64,000 nucleotides of DNA. Origin: Oscillospiraceae bacterium (lineage in GTDB: Bacteria > Bacillota > Clostridia > Oscillospirales > Acutalibacteraceae). The first letter of the stretch is position 1, and every line of letters begins with the position of its first letter. The stretch covers positions 17,565 to 81,564 of the forward strand of contig SVPM01000002.1 in NCBI GenBank assembly GCA_015065865.1. The letters are read 5' to 3'. The notes below the pieces were generated by a model. That model saw nothing but the letters and a program-made list of their open reading frames with translations. It searched no databases and had not been told where the DNA came from. The position numbers and the translations under genes were made by a program. Below are positions 1,659-40,558 of this stretch, in pieces.

Positions 1659-4600
1659 TCACTTTGCCGCGGGAAGTTTATCGATCTTCATAACGGCGTA
1701 TTGCAGGATGAGGCGTGCATCGGTGGAGTTCACCGCGCCGTTGCCGTCCACATCGGCACAGGCCAAGTCCAAGCCCTCCGCACGAATCTTTTGCACCGCA
1801 TATTGCAGTGTCAAACGGGCGTCGGTGGAGTTCACGACAGTATCGCCGTTCACGTCGCCGAGCAGGGCGGGGGAGGGCGGCAACGGTTCCAAGGCCGCGA
1901 TCGCGTTTTTAAGCGCCGCCGTTGCATCGGTCACGGCGAGCGGGGTGGCGAGAGGCGCCGCACTGTAGGTCGTATGCGCTTTTTCTAACATGATCTCCAG
2001 CCACGTTGCCGATTCGATGGTGTAGAGATCGGGGTCGATCATCTCGGCTTCCCGAATGGCCGCTAACAAGTCGTCAAACGAAGCGAGAACACCGGTCGCC
2101 GCGGCGTTGACGGCGGCATCCGTCACCGTCGGCGCGGTCAAGCCGAAGGAGAACCCATCGAAGAACAGGGTGCCCGTATCCTCGGCGACGCCGTGGAAGG
2201 TGACGCCGCTCACCGCATTCAGCAGGGCGGCGGGATTCTTTTGAACAACGCCCTTGAGTGTCAGTTGATCCAGTGCGAAGGTGTACACGTGAAACGCCGT
2301 GCCGCCTGCCGTGAGTGTCACCGTGTTGCCGCCGTCAACCGGCGGGACGTCGTAGGTCTTGCCGCCGCTCGTTAACGTCATCGAGAGTTCTACGGCAGTG
2401 GCGGAGGGGTTGAGCAGTTTGACCGACAGCGTTTTGTATTTGCCCCATTTCTGCGCGGTCTGCGGATAGGTGAGAATGAGAGATACGAGGAAATTGCGGT
2501 CAAACTCCACCCGCAGAGAGGCGATACCTTCTGCCTTGATGACGGTGTCGTAGGAGTAATCGCCGCTTTCCACGGCAAAGGAGGGGCGGTATCCGTATTT
2601 GTAGTCGGCCGTGTTGGTTTCATCGTATACCCATACGTCGCGGTCGGCGTACATCCAATCCTGCGCCGTGAAGCGGGTGCTGCTTTTGTCTTGGTTCGAA
2701 ACCGTGTCGTTCGGTTTTGCGGTGCGGAAGGGGGAGGCGGGAATGCCGTCCGCGTTCGCAAGGTTTGCCGCCTGTGCGAAGTCGTCAAACGCATACGTCA
2801 CGTGCTGCGGTTCGGCCACGTAGCGGTTCCACACCTTCACCGTGTCGGCATCCACGATCGCCGCTTCGGCGTTGACGTAGACACCGTCGCTCCCCGCGAC
2901 GGTGAAACCGTGCAGGTCGGCGGTGCCGTCGAGCGTTTTGAGCCCGTCACCCACACGATCAAAGGTGACGTATACGGCGCCGTCTTTCACTTCCTTCGAT
3001 GCGTATACGGGTGCGGTGTATTCCCCCTCGCCGCCGTATACCATATTGAGTGCCGCCAGCGCGTAGCGTTTGCCCGCCGGTGTCTTGATACGCGGGTGGA
3101 TCGGGTCGGAGGTGTTGGTGCCGAGCATATGCTCGAGCGGCAGGTCATACAGCGGGAGCATGGCGGTGGTGGCCGCATCGCACACCGCCCAGCCGCGCTC
3201 CATATTTTCGGAAAGATAACCGATGGTCGCTTTGCCGATACCGTAGTTATACGGCGAGATCTGTGCAAAGATGAGCGGCATATCCCCGTTGGGATATCCG
3301 AACACGTCGCCCCAGCTGTCTTTCAGAGCGACGAGTGCTTCATCATACATATGGGAATAACTGCTGTTGCTTTCGCCTTGGTGCCAGATGGTGCCTGCGA
3401 TATTCATCCCCTCGAGCGGTGCGATCTTCGCGTTGTACCACGTGGTCATAATGCCCGCGGTTTCGGGCCACCAGTCGGCATCGTAATATTTACCCAAGGA
3501 TTTGAGCGCGTTTTTGAGTTCGCCGTTTTGGTCGATCGCCTCGCGGGAAAGCCACGCTTCGATCACGGTGGCGCCCAGTGCGGCGTTGACGATACCCACC
3601 GGCACGTCCAACGTTTCTTGCAGTTCTTTTGCAAAGGCATAGGCGATGGAGGACACGTTGGAAAGCGCTGCTTTATCGTTGCCGCGGCACCAATAAGCGC
3701 CGCCCACGTCGCGTGACGGCGTAGCGGAGGTGCCGCCGTTTGCCCGCAACGGTTCACAGAACACCCGAACGGCGGTGTTGTCGGCGGCGTTCAAAATGTC
3801 GGCGGCGTGCATATCGCGTCCGATCCACAACTCCATATTGGACTGGCCGCACGCGATCCACAACTCGCCTACCAACACGTCCTGTATCGTCCAGTCGTGT
3901 TCTCCCGCGGTGACGTGAATGGTATAGGCGGTGTATCCGCCCTGCCGCGGTGCAAACGCCGCTTCCCAACGGCCGTCGGTGTTGATGGTGGTTTGCACCG
4001 TTTCAAGCAGGGAGTCGCCCTGATACAGTTCGGCGGTGACGGTGTCGCTCGCATCGCCGTATCCCCACAGGTTCATCGGCTTATTTTGCTGGAACAGCAT
4101 ACCGTCCGAAAACAGGGTGGGCAGTGTGGGGGCACCCGCTATATCCACCAGACGCACGTTGGTTACCGTGAACTGTAAGCGGTCGGTGAAATCGGAGGGC
4201 CAGTTGTTCATATAGATCCGCATATAGTTGATGGCGGAAAGATCGAGTTTGCCGCCCGTAGTGCCGAAGGAGGAGAGGGGGATGGCGTATTCATGGGTGC
4301 CTTCCTGCCAACGCAGTTGGTTGGTGCCGTAGTTGGCTTCGTTCACGTCGCAACGCCCCGACGAGGTGAGTTCGATCTGGCCACCGGCCAAAATCGGCGG
4401 GGTGAAATCTCCCGCGTTGGTGAGGTTTTGGAAGGTGATATCCATCAACAATACCAGCGTTGCGGGGTTGTGCTTGGAGGCGTCGATCGCAGGGAACGTC
4501 TTCTCCGCCACGACGGTGGGGGTGGCGGTGCCGTTACCTGTGACGGTGCGGTTTAAGGTAAAGGGGATGTTACCCACGAGATACTCCGTTTCCCACACCG

Positions 4601-32471: not shown

Positions 32472-32510
32472 AAAAAGCCACACGGTCAACGCAGACCGTG
32501 TGGCTTTTTT
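32472..32510. terminator. Bidirectional terminator between convergent genes
   Basis: A 16-bp stem AAAAAGCCACACGGTC / GACCGTGTGGCTTTTT with a 6-nt loop is T-rich in both directions. It ends the clpE-like transcript and, on the minus strand, the nifS-to-flavoprotein operon. Confidence 0.92.
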
Positions 32511-32547: not shown

Positions 32548-33096
32548 TTATCCCGCCACGGCCTTTCCTGCGGCGCGGGCGGCGGTGAGAAGGTCGGACG
32601 AAAGCGCGGTGCGGTCGGTCGCATCGGCGTGCACGCAAACCGCGGGCGCGCTGTTCAATACGGTCAGCGTGGGGGCCAGTTGCTGTTCCAAGCACACACC
32701 GTCCGCACGGTCGGCCCCTGCCGTGGTGAGCAACACCGTCTTTTTGGGCAAGGCGATCGGCGGGCGCACCCCGCGCACGAACCGTGCCGACCAATATCGC
32801 TGCAAGCGGTCGAGCATCGCTTTCAGCGGTGCGGGAAACGCGCGATTATACACGGGAGTGGCGATCACCAACACGTCGGCTTCTTCCAAAGCCGTGTAGA
32901 ACGCATCCAGATCGTGGTGGCGGCATCCGTTTGTTTCGCGACAGAAACCGCAATCGTCACAGGGGGCGGCAACGGTGGCAAACGCATCCCACCGTGTGAC
33001 GACGGCATCGCCGATACCGTCCAAGCAGGAGGCGAGCAGGTGGGCGGTCGTGCCGTTTTCGTGCGGGGAGCCGAACAGTACCAAAACGCGCGGCAT
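32548..33096 (-). CDS. Flavodoxin-like oxidoreductase with CX2CX2CX5C motif
   Basis: 182-residue NADPH-dependent FMN reductase/iron-sulfur flavoprotein-like protein. The FMN loop is LFGSPHENGTTAHLL near residue 6; CDDCGFCRETNGC near residue 46 has the compact cysteine spacing of iron-sulfur flavoproteins (Isf), suggesting a 4Fe-4S cluster, and TPVYNRAFPAPLKAMLDR is the second flavin block. Start is ATG 33096 with GAGGTG 6 nt upstream. It is the last gene of the minus-strand operon, 10 nt after the giant fusion gene. Electron partner unknown. Confidence 0.82.
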   Translation of the reverse strand: MPRVLVLFGSPHENGTTAHLLASCLDGIGDAVVTRWDAFATVAAPCDDCGFCRETNGCRHHDLDAFYTALEEADVLVIATPVYNRAFPAPLKAMLDRLQRYWSARFVRGVRPPIALPKKTVLLTTAGADRADGVCLEQQLAPTLTVLNSAPAVCVHADATDRTALSSDLLTAARAAGKAVAG

Positions 33097-33106
33097 AGCG
33101 TTCACC

Positions 33107-36100
33107 TCATTCCCAAACGGGCAGTACGATGGTGTACCGCCCGCCGTCGGTCAGTGAATAGTAATGGTTCAGTATCTGCCGCCACGACCAACCTTCCTCG
33201 TTGGCGTAGCCGATCGCACCGTATTGGCTGAGACCCAGTCCGTGCCCGTGTCCGCGGGTGGTGAAGGTGATGCGGTCGGTCACGGCATCGTAGGTTACGG
33301 TGAAACTGTGGGAGCGCAGGGTGCCCGAGCCGATGGCTTTGCGAATATCAATGCCGCGCAGATACACCCGTTTTCCTTCGTGCTCGTAATACGCGTTGGT
33401 GTCCACCACGTATCCGCCGTTGCCGTCGTAAGACTTGGCAAACAGCGGGGTGGCACCGTCTTCAAACGATACGGCGGTTACCGCACCGGCGGTCTCCTTG
33501 GATACGTAGGCCGCAAGCAACGCCTTCAACTGCGTGAAGGTGAGGGAATGGGTAGCCGTCAAGGAATCGTTGCCCGAATACTTTTTCACATATTCTTCGG
33601 TGTCGTAACGGCTTTCCACACTTTGCAGATACGGCAAAGCGGCGGTATACACGTGTTGGCAACTGGCGGAAGCACCGCCCGTACTGCTGGAATACATCGC
33701 GCAGATCGGCATACGGCTGCGTATCGTTTGCGCGGTATCCACCATTTTGACACCCACCACTTCGCCTACCGCATCGTACAGTTTGCGGTCGGTCGGGTTG
33801 GCGAGGTCGATGCGCGAGGAGATGGAGAAGGTGCCGCCGCTCATACAAGAGTACAGCATATAGGTATAACTGGCTACCGCTTGTGCTTTTTGTGCTTCCA
33901 CGGAATTTTGCATGGTACGCGCGGCACCCATTTCGGTCTTTACCGCACACGCAACGGCATATTGCAGGTCTTCTCGTGTTTGCAGGGTGCTTTCCTCGCC
34001 GCCGATATTCACTTTGATGCCGCGGAAAAAGGCGGTTTCGCCGCCCGTACTCGGCGTGCCGTGCGGTATCGTGGTCGTGGTGGCGGGTTCGGTCGTGCTG
34101 GCCGCCGTGGTGGAGGCCGCCGTGGTGGCAACGGTCGTTGCCGCGGTGACGGTCGTTTTGCGGCCCGTGGTGGGTGCCGTCGTTGCGGCGGTCGTGCCCC
34201 GCTCTGTCGTGTCGGTCATATCCGGCACGGGCATTTCAATATCCGGCACGATATCACTGCTTTGAAAGACCGTCGTCGTGGCGGAGGTGGTTGCGGTGGT
34301 CGTGGTGGTGTTGCCCGACATGGCGGCGGGGTACACCGTGTGCGGATTATAGGATATTACCGTGTCTTGACCGGGGGGTTCGCCAAGCGAAAGGCGGCGC
34401 GCCGCCACGATCAAGCGGATCCCGTCTACCCCCGTTTTCGCGGAAGCATCCGTTTCCAACAGCAGTAACGTGTCGTCTTTTTGCGGCGTGACCGACGTGA
34501 TAAAGAGCGAACGTGCCTGCAGTTCGGCGGTAAACGCCAAAAAATCCTCATTACTGTCAAAGGACACGGCACGGTAATCAAACGAGGGGTCGTTTTCATC
34601 TGCATACAGCACCGCAAATACTTCAAAAGTACCCGTGGTATACAGGGTGTTCATCTCCACCGCCGTGTGGCGGAGAAGGAAGTTGGCATCGGTGTAACGG
34701 ATCAGATCCGAAAACATCTGCCCGTCTTCGGTGTTGTTGCCGTGAATGATATACGAACGGTTGACGGAAAGCGGAGAGGCAACGGTCACCTTTTCGTCAA
34801 AATACGGCACGCCGTAATGCGAAGGACGTCCCGAAAAATCGGTGGCGGTGTAGTCGTATCGTCCGTTTTGCATAACGGGATAACTGATGCCCGTATCCCC
34901 GATACGCACCCATCCGCGAATGTCGTTGTTTTTTTGGTACAACGCGTAAAAACGCGCCAACATACCGCGCGGGAAATCGGCGGCGTTGTAACTGCCGTCG
35001 TGTTCGCGGTCATACAACAATTCCAACGATACGTATTGCTCGCGGTTTTGGGCAGGGTCGATGACGTACGCATCCAACAAAAACCAGCCGAACACACAAA
35101 AAGCAAGCACCGAAAGCCACACCAGCGTTTTGGCTACCCACAGGGCGGGGCGGTCGCCGCGCCACGGCAGAATGAACGCCAAAAAGCGGCGGTGTCCGGT
35201 GGCTTCACCCATGGGAATGGCGGGTGTGTGATCGCCCGCTTCCAACAACTCTCCGCCCGCCATCACGGTGGGATACGCTTCCAAATAACGGCGGGTGAGG
35301 TCCAGTGCCTGCGCCGTGGCCACGGCACGCACCGTGTCGCGGTCCCCCGCGTTGACATGCAGTTCTTTCACCCATACACGGCGGTCGTCTGCCAGAGCGA
35401 TATACACCGTGCCCACGGGTTTACCTTCACCTGAAGTAGGGCCGGCCTCCCCCGTGATGCTGACACCGAGTTCGCTGCCGCCGACACGGCGCACACCGAC
35501 AGCCATTGCGCGGGCGGTATCGGCCGACACGGCACCTTGCGTTTTCAAAATATCTTCCGATACGCCGAGCACATCGTGCTTGATCTCCTTGGAATAGGCA
35601 GCAATACCGCATTCAAACACCGACGAGGCACCCGCAACCTGTGTCAGTTTGCCCGAAAGCAGACCGGCCGTGCAGGATTCGGCGGTGGCGACCTTCATCT
35701 GCTTTTCCTTGAGCAGATGCACAACGGCGGTTTGCAGGTCGTTGGTATCCACGCCGAAGACGTAGGAGCCCAGCCGTTCGCAGACCGTGCCGACAGGCTC
35801 GGCGCACAGGGCGGCGGCTTCTTCGGCGGTGGCGGCGTGGGCGGTGATACGCACCAACACTTCGCCGCCCGTGCGGGCAGTGAGCGTGATGGTGGGGTTG
35901 GCGGCCGCCATCCGATCCGACAGTCGTTCGGTCACCGCCGCAGGGGTGAGCCCGAAGACCCCTACCGTGCGCGAAACGAAAGCGCCGTTGCCGCGTTCGC
36001 TGAAAAACGGGAGTAAGGCGTGTTGCAACAGAGAGGACAGTATATCCTCATCTGCCGGAAGGAACAAAAACAGTTGAGCATATTTTTCCACCGCAAATCC

Positions 36101-36394
36101 GCGGGGTGTGCCTGCGGCATCGCAAAGCGATACGGCACCGCGGGGGCGTTCTTCCTCCCACGGCAAACCGAGCAGTGCCGCCAGTTCTTTGTCGGCATTC
36201 TGTTCGTCCGATGCACACAGTACGATACAATCGGTGCGGCGCATAGCCCCTTGCAGGGCTTCCCGTAACGCACCACCCGTCGTGTCCACCGACAGCGGCG
36301 TGTCGGGTGTGAGTCCGCACGCGGGCAACTCGCGGGACAAAAACGCGGTGACGGCGGGCGACACGGCGCCAACGGTCAAAATATCTGCCTTCAT
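33107..36394 (-). CDS. Giant fusion: CinA-like / TM / pseudo-sortase B / SpoIID
   Basis: 1095 residues in one open frame; ATG behind AAAGGAGGTG. Residues 1-215 resemble the CinA N-terminal (molybdopterin-binding-like) domain but lack the GGLGPTxDD and LPGPPxE motifs. Residues 222-375 match the CinA-C/PncC nicotinamide-nucleotide amidase (VATAESCTAGLLSGKL, SITGEAGP, KPVGTVYIAL). A span at 417-443 follows, then a sortase-B-like domain (450-668) where the catalytic GHN reads HGNN and the catalytic TC reads TD, so it is predicted inactive; RLIVAARR is kept. A Thr/Ala linker (695-785) leads to a SpoIID/LytB domain (800-1090, RGHGHGLGLSQYGA). Predicted topology: CinA part inside, remainder outside. 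I know of no such combination. Confidence 0.85.
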   Translation of the reverse strand: MKADILTVGAVSPAVTAFLSRELPACGLTPDTPLSVDTTGGALREALQGAMRRTDCIVLCASDEQNADKELAALLGLPWEEERPRGAVSLCDAAGTPRGFAVEKYAQLFLFLPADEDILSSLLQHALLPFFSERGNGAFVSRTVGVFGLTPAAVTERLSDRMAAANPTITLTARTGGEVLVRITAHAATAEEAAALCAEPVGTVCERLGSYVFGVDTNDLQTAVVHLLKEKQMKVATAESCTAGLLSGKLTQVAGASSVFECGIAAYSKEIKHDVLGVSEDILKTQGAVSADTARAMAVGVRRVGGSELGVSITGEAGPTSGEGKPVGTVYIALADDRRVWVKELHVNAGDRDTVRAVATAQALDLTRRYLEAYPTVMAGGELLEAGDHTPAIPMGEATGHRRFLAFILPWRGDRPALWVAKTLVWLSVLAFCVFGWFLLDAYVIDPAQNREQYVSLELLYDREHDGSYNAADFPRGMLARFYALYQKNNDIRGWVRIGDTGISYPVMQNGRYDYTATDFSGRPSHYGVPYFDEKVTVASPLSVNRSYIIHGNNTEDGQMFSDLIRYTDANFLLRHTAVEMNTLYTTGTFEVFAVLYADENDPSFDYRAVSFDSNEDFLAFTAELQARSLFITSVTPQKDDTLLLLETDASAKTGVDGIRLIVAARRLSLGEPPGQDTVISYNPHTVYPAAMSGNTTTTTATTSATTTVFQSSDIVPDIEMPVPDMTDTTERGTTAATTAPTTGRKTTVTAATTVATTAASTTAASTTEPATTTTIPHGTPSTGGETAFFRGIKVNIGGEESTLQTREDLQYAVACAVKTEMGAARTMQNSVEAQKAQAVASYTYMLYSCMSGGTFSISSRIDLANPTDRKLYDAVGEVVGVKMVDTAQTIRSRMPICAMYSSSTGGASASCQHVYTAALPYLQSVESRYDTEEYVKKYSGNDSLTATHSLTFTQLKALLAAYVSKETAGAVTAVSFEDGATPLFAKSYDGNGGYVVDTNAYYEHEGKRVYLRGIDIRKAIGSGTLRSHSFTVTYDAVTDRITFTTRGHGHGLGLSQYGAIGYANEEGWSWRQILNHYYSLTDGGRYTIVLPVWE

Positions 36395-36424: not shown

Positions 36425-37630
36425 TTAACAGCCTAAGGCGGCATCGTCTGCGGCGTTCACCGTGATGCGGCGCACGCCGGCGATGGCTTCTTCGATCCAC
36501 TCCTCGATGGGCAGATCGTTTTCCACGGCTTCCAACATCGCCACGGTGGGACGGGTGCGCGGGTGGCGGGGGGTGAATACGGTACAACAATCTTCATACG
36601 GTTGAATGGAGATATCGAAGGTGTCGATACGGCGGGCGATGCGAATGATCTCCTCTTTATCCATACCGATCACCGGACGGAATACGGGAACGGTACACAC
36701 CGCATCGGTCACGGCGAGCGCCTGTGCCGTCTGGCTTGCGACCTGCCCCAGACTTTCGCCCGTGATGAGCGAATGGCAACCGTCCGCCACGGCCACCCGT
36801 TCGGCAATACGCATCATAAAACGGCGCATCAACAGGGTGAACAATTCTTCGGGGCAACGGCGGCTGATCTCTTCTTGAATGTGTGTGAAGGGCACGATAT
36901 TCAGCGAGATGCGCCCTGCATAATTGGCCACGTGTTCGAGCAGTGAAATGACCTTCATTTCCGCACGTTCACTGGTGTACGGCGGGGAGGCAAAGTGGAT
37001 CGCGGTCAGTTGCAGTCCACGTTTTGCCATCATATACGCCGCCACGGGCGAGTCGATACCGCCCGAAATGAGCAAGCCGGAACGTCCCGCCGTGCCCACG
37101 GGCATACCGCCTGCACCGGGCAGTTGTGCCGCGTGGATATAGGCACCGAAATCGCGAATCTCTACCATAATGAGCAGTTCGGGATCGCGGACGTCCACCT
37201 TCAGATGCGGGAATTGACTGAGCACCGCCCCGCCCACTTCGGCACAGATCGCGGGGGAGCCGAGCGGGAACGTCTTATCACTGCGTTTGGCCTCCACCTT
37301 AAAGGTTTTGGCACGGCGCAGTTGTTCCGCCAGATACCGCGGCGCCTCCTCGCAGATCACGCGGATATCCTTTGCCACCACCCGTGCGCGGGAAAAGGCG
37401 GAGATACCGAATACGTGTGCCACGCGGTCGGCGGCGGTGTCCAGATCGATGCCGTCTGCCTGCGGTTCAATGTAGATGGTGGATTGTGCGCGGCGAATTT
37501 GAAAGGAACCGAGCGGGCGCAGACGGTGTTTCAAATTTTTAACCAGCACGTCTTCAAAATTACTGCGGTTTAAGCCTTTCAGTGCCAACTCGCCGTTTTT
37601 TATCAACAGAATTTCTTCGGGTATGTACAT
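36425..37630 (-). CDS. thiI: tRNA 4-thiouridine synthase ThiI
   Basis: Adenylates U8 of tRNA and inserts sulfur supplied by a cysteine desulfurase; may also feed thiazole synthesis. 401 residues from the ATG at 37630 (AAGGAG 9 nt upstream). N-terminal ferredoxin-like and THUMP domains (about 1-165) precede the PP-loop LLISGGIDSPVAAYMMAKRG near residue 180. No rhodanese domain follows, as in the short Firmicutes form. It shares an operon with the cysteine desulfurase upstream, a logical sulfur donor, but srtB lies between them. Confidence 0.95.
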   Translation of the reverse strand: MYIPEEILLIKNGELALKGLNRSNFEDVLVKNLKHRLRPLGSFQIRRAQSTIYIEPQADGIDLDTAADRVAHVFGISAFSRARVVAKDIRVICEEAPRYLAEQLRRAKTFKVEAKRSDKTFPLGSPAICAEVGGAVLSQFPHLKVDVRDPELLIMVEIRDFGAYIHAAQLPGAGGMPVGTAGRSGLLISGGIDSPVAAYMMAKRGLQLTAIHFASPPYTSERAEMKVISLLEHVANYAGRISLNIVPFTHIQEEISRRCPEELFTLLMRRFMMRIAERVAVADGCHSLITGESLGQVASQTAQALAVTDAVCTVPVFRPVIGMDKEEIIRIARRIDTFDISIQPYEDCCTVFTPRHPRTRPTVAMLEAVENDLPIEEWIEEAIAGVRRITVNAADDAALGC

Positions 37631-37649: not shown

Positions 37650-38954
37650 TTACGGGGTCGCGGCAGTGGGTTCCGTGGCGGCGGCATCCGTGGTTTGTGC
37701 CGCTTCGGCCGCGGTGGTGGTTTCCGCCTCGGTGGGGGCGGCGGTCGTGGAGGTTGCTGCCTCGTCACCGACGGTGGTGGGTGCTGACACGCCGGTGATG
37801 GTGGTCGTTTCTGTGGGCGCGACCGTCGTGGTCGGGTTCGTCCCGCCGCCGTACACGCTGTGCGGGGTCTTCTTCTGCGCGGTGTACCAACGGTACGGCA
37901 TAATGACGTCCTTGTTTACCGTGATCTTGTTGGATACGGTGGCGGCTTCACCGTTGCGTACTTTACGGGCGACCACCGCCAGACGCGCATCCTCAAAACG
38001 CGCGACGCTCTTGGGGGAGCAGGTGTACAAAATAAGCAGTTCGTCGCTTTCCTTGACATCCACGTCGTTGAAATCGTAGAGCGATCGGTCACGCAGATCG
38101 GCCACGTATTTCATAAACTGGTCGTTATTGGTAAAGGACGTTTCCTGAATCGAGAAATAGTGTTCGATCTTGGATTTGGAATCCTGCAACAGCACCGCAA
38201 AGATCTTGTACTGATAGGTGGTGAACAGCGTGTCCAACGTGATGATCTGGTTGGCGTTTTGCATATACGATACCGAGCCGGCCAGATTGTTCAGCTTGGC
38301 AAACATCTGCCCGCTCGCCATATTATGGCCGTAAATGACCAAACTCTTGTTGGCGGAGGTCGGCGTATCCAGATTGTTTTTCGCATCAAAAAAGAGCGCG
38401 CCGTTTTTGTTTTTGTTATTGTAAAAGTCGTGGTCGAGATAGTAATCGTTGTTGTTCTTATGCATCACTTCACGGTCGATGCCGCAAGCGGAATACCGAA
38501 GCCAGCCGCGGATGTCGCTGTTGAGGTAGTACAGCGTTTTTAAATCGTCCTGAATACCCAGCGGATAGCCCTGCCACTTTTCGGCTTCGGCGGTCAGTTC
38601 GGCATCCTGTTTGCCGTAACGGAGGTTGGTAAGTTCCTCCGCCAATTCGGTGTTTTGTTGCGGAATGATGACCGATTCATTGATAAGCACCGAAGTGGTA
38701 CCCACAAAGACCAACAGCGAGATAAGCAGCAGCAATTTGCGGGCGATCTCGCCGATAGGGTCGTCGTGATACGGAATAAACGCATCGAGCGGGCGGCGAC
38801 GGCGGCGCTTTTTGGGGGCTTTCTCCGCCAAGGTTTCCAGTGAGACCGATTCTTCCTGTCGGCGCAGATTTTCCACAAAAGCCAGTGCATCGTCCAATTC
38901 TTCATCGGCTATTGAGGGAAGGGTATCAAAAAACTCTTGTTCACGGTCGGACAT
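37650..38954 (-). CDS. srtB: Class B sortase with Thr/Ala-rich C-terminal tail
   Basis: Membrane transpeptidase of 434 residues. Cytoplasmic N-terminus (about 1-70) ends in a KKRRRRR stretch, the span is about 72-93, and the sortase domain (about 140-332) has the catalytic His in YGHNM (about 210), Cys in LYTCS (about 312) and Arg in EDARLAVVARK (about 324), all intact. A tail of about 65 residues, mostly Thr/Ala/Glu, follows, unusual for a sortase. The start is ATG 38954 with GAGGAG 11 nt upstream; a longer frame would run into nifS. Its domain is homologous to the inactive one in the fusion protein of the same operon. Substrates are not identifiable here. Confidence 0.9.
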   Translation of the reverse strand: MSDREQEFFDTLPSIADEELDDALAFVENLRRQEESVSLETLAEKAPKKRRRRRPLDAFIPYHDDPIGEIARKLLLLISLLVFVGTTSVLINESVIIPQQNTELAEELTNLRYGKQDAELTAEAEKWQGYPLGIQDDLKTLYYLNSDIRGWLRYSACGIDREVMHKNNNDYYLDHDFYNNKNKNGALFFDAKNNLDTPTSANKSLVIYGHNMASGQMFAKLNNLAGSVSYMQNANQIITLDTLFTTYQYKIFAVLLQDSKSKIEHYFSIQETSFTNNDQFMKYVADLRDRSLYDFNDVDVKESDELLILYTCSPKSVARFEDARLAVVARKVRNGEAATVSNKITVNKDVIMPYRWYTAQKKTPHSVYGGGTNPTTTVAPTETTTITGVSAPTTVGDEAATSTTAAPTEAETTTAAEAAQTTDAAATEPTAATP

Positions 38955-38961
38955 AGGGCAT

Positions 38962-40119
38962 TCATCTCCTCTGCTTGGCGTGGCGAAAGGCCGCCACGCG
39001 GGTAAGGGTATCCACCGCTTCCCGCATCGCCGCGAGAAAACGGTCAACGTCGGTTTCGGTGGTGGTGTGACAAAAACTGATACGCAGTGCGCTGTCGATC
39101 TCCGCCGTCGGGAGATTCAGTGCCTGCAAAACGGGGCTTTGCTTTCCTTTGGAACAGGCAGACCCGCCGGACACGAATATGTCGCGTTCCGCCAAAAAGT
39201 GCAGCAGCGTTTCACTCCGCAGGCCGGGGAAGGATACGTTCACAATGTACGGCACGTGCACCGCGGGACGATGCAGACGTGCTCCCGAAAAGGCGGAAAG
39301 CCCTGCGATCAAGCGGTCGCACAGCGCGGTGTAATGCGCCAGTGTTTCTTGCATCGGCGGGAGGGCCGTTACCGCCGCGCCGAAGGCCGCGATGGCGGGG
39401 GCGGCTTCGGTGCCCGCGCGAAGGGCGCGTTCTTGACTGCCGCCCACGGCACGGGGTATCACCCGCACGCCGCGGCGTATGTAGAGCCCGCCCACGCCTT
39501 TCGGCGCGTGCAGTTTATGGCCGCTCACACTCATAAGGTCCACACCCCATTTTTGTGCTTTAAGCGGCAGTTTGCCGGCGGCTTGTACCGCATCGGTATG
39601 AAACAGGGCGCGCGGTGCGGCTTCCCGCACGGCGGCAACTATGGCTTCCGTCGCAAAATGGGCGCCCGTTTCGTTGTTGACCGTCATCACGCTGACCAAC
39701 GCCGTGTCGGCGCGGCAGGCGGCGGCGACCGCGGCAGGGGTGATCATGCCGTCGGCATCGGGCAAAAGGCGGGTGACTTCCCACCCTTGTTTTTCCAATT
39801 CATCGAACGCAGCAGTGACCGATGCGTGCTCCATCGCGGTCGTTACGGCGTGCCGTCCCACGCGGTGGTTGGCGGCGGCACCGCCCAAGATCGCAAGGTT
39901 GTTCGCTTCGGTCCCGCCGGAGGTGAAGATAAGATCTTCGGCAGGAGCGCCGATCAGCCCTGCAACCGCACGGCGTGCGGCGGTGAGTTCGCGCTCGGCC
40001 GTGATGCCGGCCGTGTGCAGGGAGGACGGGTTGCCGAAAGCCTCGGTCATCATATATACAGCCTTTTCCGCCGCCGCTTGACAGACGGCGGTGGTGGCGG
40101 CGTTGTCCAAATAGGTCAT
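38962..40119 (-). CDS. nifS: Cysteine desulfurase (NifS/IscS family)
   Basis: PLP enzyme that mobilises sulfur from cysteine, 385 residues. It opens MTYLDNAATTAV; SGGTEANN near residue 70, HTDAVQAAGKLP near 195, the PLP lysine in SGHKLHAPKGVGG, and the persulfide Cys322 in SGGSACSKGKQSPVL. First gene of the minus-strand operon, with a promoter about 30 nt upstream. With thiI two genes downstream the probable role is tRNA thiolation; no iscU is adjacent. Confidence 0.95.
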   Translation of the reverse strand: MTYLDNAATTAVCQAAAEKAVYMMTEAFGNPSSLHTAGITAERELTAARRAVAGLIGAPAEDLIFTSGGTEANNLAILGGAAANHRVGRHAVTTAMEHASVTAAFDELEKQGWEVTRLLPDADGMITPAAVAAACRADTALVSVMTVNNETGAHFATEAIVAAVREAAPRALFHTDAVQAAGKLPLKAQKWGVDLMSVSGHKLHAPKGVGGLYIRRGVRVIPRAVGGSQERALRAGTEAAPAIAAFGAAVTALPPMQETLAHYTALCDRLIAGLSAFSGARLHRPAVHVPYIVNVSFPGLRSETLLHFLAERDIFVSGGSACSKGKQSPVLQALNLPTAEIDSALRISFCHTTTETDVDRFLAAMREAVDTLTRVAAFRHAKQRR

Positions 40120-40228: not shown

Positions 40229-40558
40229 TCAGCCCGTATAATCCTCCAACAGGCGTTGCAGAGCGGCGGCGGAATACACGGGGATCCCTGCACGAAGCGC
40301 CTCCTGCTCGGTTACGGGAAGTGAGGTTATGAACACGTCGTACACGGCGGTCGGGGTGTCGCCTTGCGAAGAAAACACCGCCAACTGCCCGTCCCACGTA
40401 CCCACCACCGCAAACGGTTCGGCGCCGTTGCCGACGGGGGCGTTTTCGTCGGTGTCGGCAGGGGCGGCGGGGCGCGACAACGCCACGACCACCCCGCTTA
40501 CCACCGCCAGAAGAAGGACGACACCGTACAATCGTTTCCAAAGCGGGTGCAAACGCAT
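40229..40558 (-). CDS. Small membrane-anchored protein with BofC C-terminal-like domain
   Basis: 109 residues: short basic N-terminus, one membrane span (about 9-28), and an extracellular domain reading VVGTWDGQLAVFSSQGDTPTAVYDVFITSLPVTEQEALRAGI and ending VYSAAALQRLLEDYTG (quoted in part; the whole is about 60 residues). This pattern matches the small BofC_C-like proteins of Clostridia. In Bacillus, BofC acts in the forespore to restrain SpoIVB signalling. AAGGAG lies 8 nt before the ATG. A forespore-type promoter candidate is upstream. It diverges from the class A PBP gene. Confidence 0.72.
   Translation of the reverse strand: MRLHPLWKRLYGVVLLLAVVSGVVVALSRPAAPADTDENAPVGNGAEPFAVVGTWDGQLAVFSSQGDTPTAVYDVFITSLPVTEQEALRAGIPVYSAAALQRLLEDYTG

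Follow-up and report, generated by a model that had tools for sequence, protein, structure and literature searches.

A CinA-type protein joined across a predicted membrane span to a pseudo-sortase and a SpoIID domain in Oscillospiraceae-type Clostridia

CinA proteins are widespread, and their cellular role beyond the recycling of nicotinamide mononucleotide (NMN) is not settled; to our knowledge, the known members are soluble. A 64,000-nucleotide stretch of an Oscillospiraceae bacterium (assembly GCA_015065865.1, contig SVPM01000002.1; hereafter the window) raises the question of what such an enzyme might do in one chain with wall-directed domains. An earlier reading made from the sequence alone had proposed, at positions 33107-36394, a protein composed of a CinA-like half, a membrane span, a sortase-B-like domain, a Thr-rich linker and a SpoIID domain, and this architecture was confirmed by domain searches and predicted folds. 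The single open frame of 1095 codons was also found as claimed, uninterrupted and on the minus strand, which the earlier reading had not named; stop codons break the plus strand of the same interval. The start ATG lies at 36394, with AAAGGAGG directly 5' of it.

Domain matches were located at residues 141-214 (CinA_KH), 219-371 (PncC), 426-661 (class B sortase, TIGR03064; 95.6 bits, under the cut-off of 153.75) and 817-1080 (SpoIID_LytB, TIGR02669; 97.3 bits, over the cut-off of 83.3). Pfam alone missed the sortase and left SpoIID under its cut-off; NCBIfam, a PDB sequence search and the predicted folds resolved both, and the PncC, sortase B and SpoIID folds were all present in the fusion protein. 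The membrane span, previously placed at about residues 417-443, was predicted by hydropathy at 427-445, within a helix covering residues 416-462 in the structure model. Homologues were taken as the best 120 of 158 at E ≤ 1e-30 among 7995 candidates scored, the window's own protein included, and every one of these 120 listed clusters (at least 119 besides the window's own) carried the three parts in one chain. Lys and Arg were commoner on the N-terminal side of the span than on its C-terminal side in 115 of the 116 in which a span was called (none was called in 4 of the 120), which supports the predicted topology with CinA inside and the sortase and SpoIID outside. Between the latter two, the predicted local distance difference test (pLDDT) fell below 50 across most of residues 695-782 of the linker.

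The sortase had been described as dead, and it was, with Asn at the position of the catalytic His and Asp at that of the Cys. Neither catalytic residue occurred in any of the listed triple fusions (0/120 each), where the His position was held by Asn in 110 and the lost Cys position was variable (Pro in 50, Asp in 42). The former active-site stretch was still conserved, with Gly552-Asn553-Asn554 and Arg660, the active-site Arg being present in 109 of the 120. The flanking enzymes retained their catalytic residues. For AtCinA, S31/K63 is given as a Ser/Lys catalytic dyad, and S31, Y58, K63 and T105 as site residues (PMC5384747); Ser240, Tyr267, Lys272 and Thr314 of the fusion aligned with these four and were conserved in 120/120, including the window's own protein. 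Among the loci examined, a single triple fusion (L106, 892-4344, minus strand) had the catalytic Ser of PncC replaced by Ala. In the SpoIID domain, Glu821 aligned with the EM-motif Glu of 4rwr and, by counting from there, was equated with E101, the catalytic Glu of C. difficile SpoIID in PMC6221140; this Glu was likewise conserved in 120/120.

The N-terminal part of the CinA half was altered. The motifs GxExxxG and GG(L/I)GPxxxD, given for COG1058 ADP-ribose pyrophosphatases in PMC3680494, were both missing from the window protein, which by these motifs failed the signature of a full CinA. Among the listed triple fusions, 79 had both motifs, one had a single motif and 40 had neither (the window and 39 others), and both were found in 16/16 stand-alone CinA proteins examined. 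The PncC domain of the fusion was the sole NMN deamidase found in the genome, which is 92.55% complete, and that fact would explain the invariance of its site as well as a nucleotide signal acting on the wall would.

The fusion belongs to a tight minus-strand run in the order nifS, srtB, thiI, fusion and FMN reductase, followed by a terminator-like stem-loop. The srtB gene, two genes upstream of the fusion, encodes a class B sortase retaining His, Cys and Arg, and was the only Pfam-recognised sortase in the genome. A single protein of the genome, cut by a contig end, matched the wall-anchor family; it has five SpaA-type repeats, and its C-terminus is made up of SPQTG followed by a hydrophobic stretch and then a basic tail. 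SPQTG is one of the two sequences best cut by C. difficile SrtB according to PMC4155245. Similar PxTG signals ended eight proteins of related genomes, fetched from 32 listed matches, and most of the genomes of those eight proteins carry a further sortase.

To follow the arrangement in relatives, 81 loci picked by similarity to the fusion (40 and 40 fetched, plus the window) were examined. The order nifS, thiI, cinA, sortase(s) and SpoIID recurred with varying joints, thiI directly preceding cinA in 59 of the 81, and some loci held CinA alone or SpoIID alone within the stretch. Triple fusions (arrangement a) were found in 17 loci from 17 genomes and spanned seven genera of the family; the same-genus genome encoded a whole fusion of 1126 aa, 82% identical. 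Their sortase was dead in 16 of the 17 and intact in one, and wherever the contig extended past thiI (14 of the 16 dead-sortase loci), an intact sortase lay upstream of thiI (14/14). In arrangement b, a gene for CinA joined to a usually intact sortase is followed by one for a dead sortase joined to SpoIID; in arrangement c the genes are separate. Separate parts thus exist beside many fused orthologues, and the outcome that the earlier reading had named as refuting it, relatives with the parts in separate genes and no fused counterpart, did not arise. SpoIID-linked sortases among all loci were dead in 34 of 35. With one type-b SpoIID protein as query, the best 120 of 315 homologues at E ≤ 1e-10 all kept the SpoIID Glu and had no PncC; none had an aligned His or Cys (8 are gapped at the His and 1 at the Cys), so that across both lists none of the 240 SpoIID-linked homologues has either residue at its aligned position. 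The COG1058 profile, the N-terminal domain of CinA, matched 100 of the 120 homologues of the type-b protein. Three of the 120 (P0210, P0218 and P0223) carried SH3 or three PASTA modules besides the dead sortase; the idea that such modules replace the pseudo-sortase was rejected, as the proteins bearing them retain it. The intact sortase of the run, the loss of the COG1058 signature and the two-gene forms had all escaped the sequence-only reading.

A tree of 106 sortase domains separated a fusion-type dead group (25 rows, support 99/99), a group with most of the two-gene dead sortases (14 rows, 98/95) and a live-type group (65 rows, 100/98) made up of 59 live sortases without SpoIID, the intact triple fusion L122 and five dead domains. 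Of the remaining three SpoIID-linked dead rows, L124 and L127 stood apart, and L113, cut by a contig end, went with the fusions. CinA-joined sortases sit in both the live-type and the fusion-type groups, indicating that this joining arose more than once, and L122, placed in the live group, is a separate triple fusion. The tree took in 29 sufficiently complete CinA-joined sortases without SpoIID, of which 10 were dead; eight of these ten grouped with the triple fusions, two of them (L116 and L133) because the contig ends mid-gene. The CinA-sortase joint was fused in 48 cases and unfused in 15, and the sortase-SpoIID joint was fused in 34 and unfused in 22. In 15 of these 22, a CinA::sortase gene is followed by a sortase::SpoIID gene. 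The fused counts (48 and 34) are enriched by the way the loci were picked. No fusion occurred at the ThiI|CinA (0/59), NifS|ThiI (0/34), sortase|ThiI (0/22) or NifS|sortase (0/21) joints. Between the window and the same-genus relative, the ratio of nonsynonymous to synonymous substitution rates (dN/dS, Nei and Gojobori counting) was 0.05 for PncC, 0.08 for the pseudo-sortase, 0.10 for SpoIID and 0.18-0.24 elsewhere, values that are rough at a dS of 0.5-1.2. All domains are under purifying selection.

We tentatively read the protein, with somewhat less than even confidence, as a membrane-anchored glycan cutter that would be placed by its dead sortase next to the intact one encoded by srtB. This reading draws on domains assigned by sequence and predicted fold, active-site residues, the usual pairing of dead and live sortases, gene order and recurrent fusions, from which we infer activity, binding and dimerisation. 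Like other CinA proteins, the CinA half would probably form a dimer, here in the cytoplasm, and would continue to convert NMN to nicotinic acid mononucleotide, acting as a cytoplasmic clasp; the span and the Thr-rich linker of about 110 residues would let SpoIID reach into the wall. The pseudo-sortase would bind rather than cut, with three candidate partners: a PxTG-type sorting signal, the wall peptide used by the sortase, or the neighbouring live enzyme. In that position SpoIID would cleave the glycan, and the wall would be opened or trimmed at the points of surface-protein attachment. In two-gene genomes, the CinA::live sortase and the pseudo-COG1058::pseudo-sortase::SpoIID proteins would form the same assembly, held by COG1058 pairing. 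Placement is the simplest reading: enzymes with intact sites flank the predicted span, a dead sortase lies between them, and a live sortase is usually found in the same run. The idea that the cutter must be positioned also agrees with the PASTA and SH3 modules seen in certain relatives and with the dockerin found on separate SpoIID proteins.

Several observations weigh against this reading. Covalent joining is not essential everywhere, as G082 encodes CinA joined to a dead sortase (L138) and a separate SpoIID (L139, whose frame is preceded by a stop), and as G379, G274 and G262 have a separate SpoIID (L140-L142), 41-44% identical to that of the fusion over the match. Nor is a dead sortase strictly required, because the sortase of the triple fusion L122 (G085:C29, 1158-4787, plus strand) has His, Cys and Arg intact; L122 is a separate one-piece version, its sortase potentially working. 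The live/dead pairing is not universal, given that the loci L050, L054, L055 and L125, in which nifS and/or thiI are present, contained sortase domains, none of them with His and Cys. The His position was mostly Lys in the two-gene form (66 of the 120 listed), and the variable residue at the lost Cys speaks against a fixed new chemistry there. The whole-protein model had a predicted template modelling score (pTM) of 0.45 and is thus silent on domain packing. As for the separate SpoIID proteins themselves, L140 (6402-7940, minus strand) and L141 (7556-9232, plus strand) each combine a Thr-rich linker with a type I dockerin, and L142 (7631-9221, plus strand) resembles them by eye.

The two halves might also have been joined to no effect, neighbouring genes having fused by loss of a stop codon, with a membrane-bound CinA keeping its housekeeping task and the wall half working independently. 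In relatives these genes are neighbours in an identical order, so that little would be needed for fusion; sortase and SpoIID genes are separate yet adjacent in 22 cases, and separated forms exist. This account, which we consider unlikely, has to meet the recurrence of fusions at the CinA-sortase and sortase-SpoIID joints and never at the others, the triple fusion in seven genera, and the cytoplasmic pseudo-COG1058 kept in 100 of the 120 listed SpoIID proteins unfused to PncC. An assembly or frameshift artefact, to which the fragmentation of the assembly into 74 contigs might lend colour, is refuted by the independent orthologues and is next to impossible: the architecture recurs in 17 of 81 loci, the listed clusters with all three parts in one chain argue that the frame is not chimeric, and purifying selection extends over every domain.

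The nucleotide coupling put forward in the earlier reading, in which NMN binding or turnover in a PncC dimer would switch SpoIID through the span and the use of nicotinamide adenine dinucleotide (NAD) would pace wall remodelling, appears improbable. NMN released by DNA ligase during replication would be a possible input. The invariant PncC site (120/120 listed) agrees with such signalling, as do the attachment of CinA or COG1058 parts to this wall module in both sortase groups, dead and live, and in the two-gene form, and the domain movement in catalysis proposed for TtCinA in PMC4246079. Against it, the status of PncC as the sole deamidase found could alone explain the conservation, the long disordered linker would be a poor lever for allostery, and 40 of the 120 listed have lost the ADP-ribose signature. 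Sporulation offers a further role, the fused SpoIID working with SpoIIP in engulfment or on the spore wall while the sortase pair decorates the forespore. SpoIIP was present in 32/32 genomes tested, and in the window's genome and its same-genus relative alike, nifS has a weakly BofC-like gene immediately upstream. Yet the genome has a separate SpoIID-like gene elsewhere (contig C34, 329 aa), which makes a purely sporulation role less likely; the BofC-like gene was not found in the other 39 loci searched, and nifS, thiI and cinA are housekeeping genes. We regard this role as improbable.

Table 1 Features of the fusion gene and its conserved run (window positions; residues are those of the fusion protein)
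Feature	Positions	Strand	Remark
nifS-like class V aminotransferase, first of the conserved run	38962..40119	-	
Class B sortase, His/Cys/Arg intact, Thr-rich tail	37650..38954	-	chosen start ATG 38954 just after nifS; listed open reading frame to 39047
thiI	36425..37630	-	ATG 37630 after ribosome-binding-site-like stretch; listed open reading frame to 37768
Fusion gene: degenerate COG1058, KH, PncC, membrane span, pseudo-sortase B, Thr-rich linker, SpoIID	33107..36394	-	1095 aa
COG1058 fold without its two signature motifs, residues 1-138	35981..36394	-	
CinA KH and PncC (NMN deamidase), residues 139-372; Ser240, Tyr267, Lys272, Thr314 kept	35279..35980	-	
Predicted membrane span, residues 427-445, N-side predicted cytoplasmic	35060..35116	-	hydropathy
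Pseudo-sortase B, residues 469-690; His to Asn553, Cys to Asp649, Arg660 kept	34325..34990	-	
Thr-rich linker, residues 691-800, mostly predicted disordered	33995..34324	-	
SpoIID/LytB, residues 801-1095, catalytic Glu821 kept	33110..33994	-	
NADPH-dependent FMN reductase-like gene, last of the run	32548..33105	-	also in same-genus genome
Intrinsic-terminator-like stem-loop, 16 pairs, T tail, 3' of the run	32472..32509	-	

The positions of the run are given in Table 1. A promoter scan gave 4 candidates against a mean of 3.5 in shuffled sequences, hence no excess. The BofC-like gene at window positions 40229-40558 (minus strand) encodes a small protein with a weak match to the BofC C-terminal domain (20.5 bits, cut-off 21); such a gene was found only in the same-genus pair among the 41 loci searched. 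Clustering of the upstream frames likewise grouped BofC-like ones only from this pair, a result that divergent relatives could escape. A dockerin lies at window positions 1701-1862 (minus strand; G000:C69:19265-19426) within a frame of 1180 residues. The window's genome had 28 dockerin matches and one cohesin, and it may therefore bear a cellulosome-like complex. A tie between the fusion and a cellulosome was rejected, as the triple-fusion genomes G024 and G077 had no dockerin match.

The fusion shares its KH and PncC domains, catalytic Ser/Lys and fold with the CinA/PncC proteins of A. tumefaciens (2a9s), T. thermophilus (4uux) and S. mutans (6mr3). Unlike these enzymes, it has lost the COG1058 motifs and continues through a predicted membrane span into a wall module. 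In contrast to the class B sortases of B. anthracis (2oqw) and C. difficile (4ux7), its pseudo-sortase is without the catalytic His and Cys, L122 being the sole intact exception among the loci. It also differs from the SpoIID lytic transglycosylases of C. difficile (5i1t) and B. anthracis (4rwr) in that a cytoplasmic enzyme and a pseudo-sortase precede its SpoIID, which sits at the end of a Thr-rich linker. PASTA Ser/Thr kinases are similar in having one span, a cytoplasmic enzyme and an outer wall-reading part, but their enzyme and outer modules are different, and they only sense, whereas the fusion has a wall-cutting domain. The earlier statement that no such domain order had been described agreed with the open-access literature searched, in which neither a CinA-sortase-SpoIID protein nor sortase targeting by a pseudo-sortase with a live partner was found described. 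A search of 291 genomes of the class at the strict threshold of E 1e-45 returned only the window's genome and one partial match in the same order with an internal stop, from which absence elsewhere does not follow.

Current annotation hides the fusion: neither sortase nor SpoIID appears among the precomputed Pfam domains of the 120 listed rows, and the few names given there were mostly CinA-type, with one SrtB family sortase. It is possible, if doubtful, that Oscillospiraceae-type Clostridia possess a wall machine in which CinA would be the clasp, the pseudo-sortase would read sorting signals or wall peptides and SpoIID would cut there, with dead readers kept beside a live sortase and NAD recycling physically tied to wall remodelling. 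Pseudo-sortases are numerous in this family, and a live counterpart is usually encoded in the same gene run. As several genera have CinA fused to a wall module, a connection of NAD turnover with the wall becomes testable.
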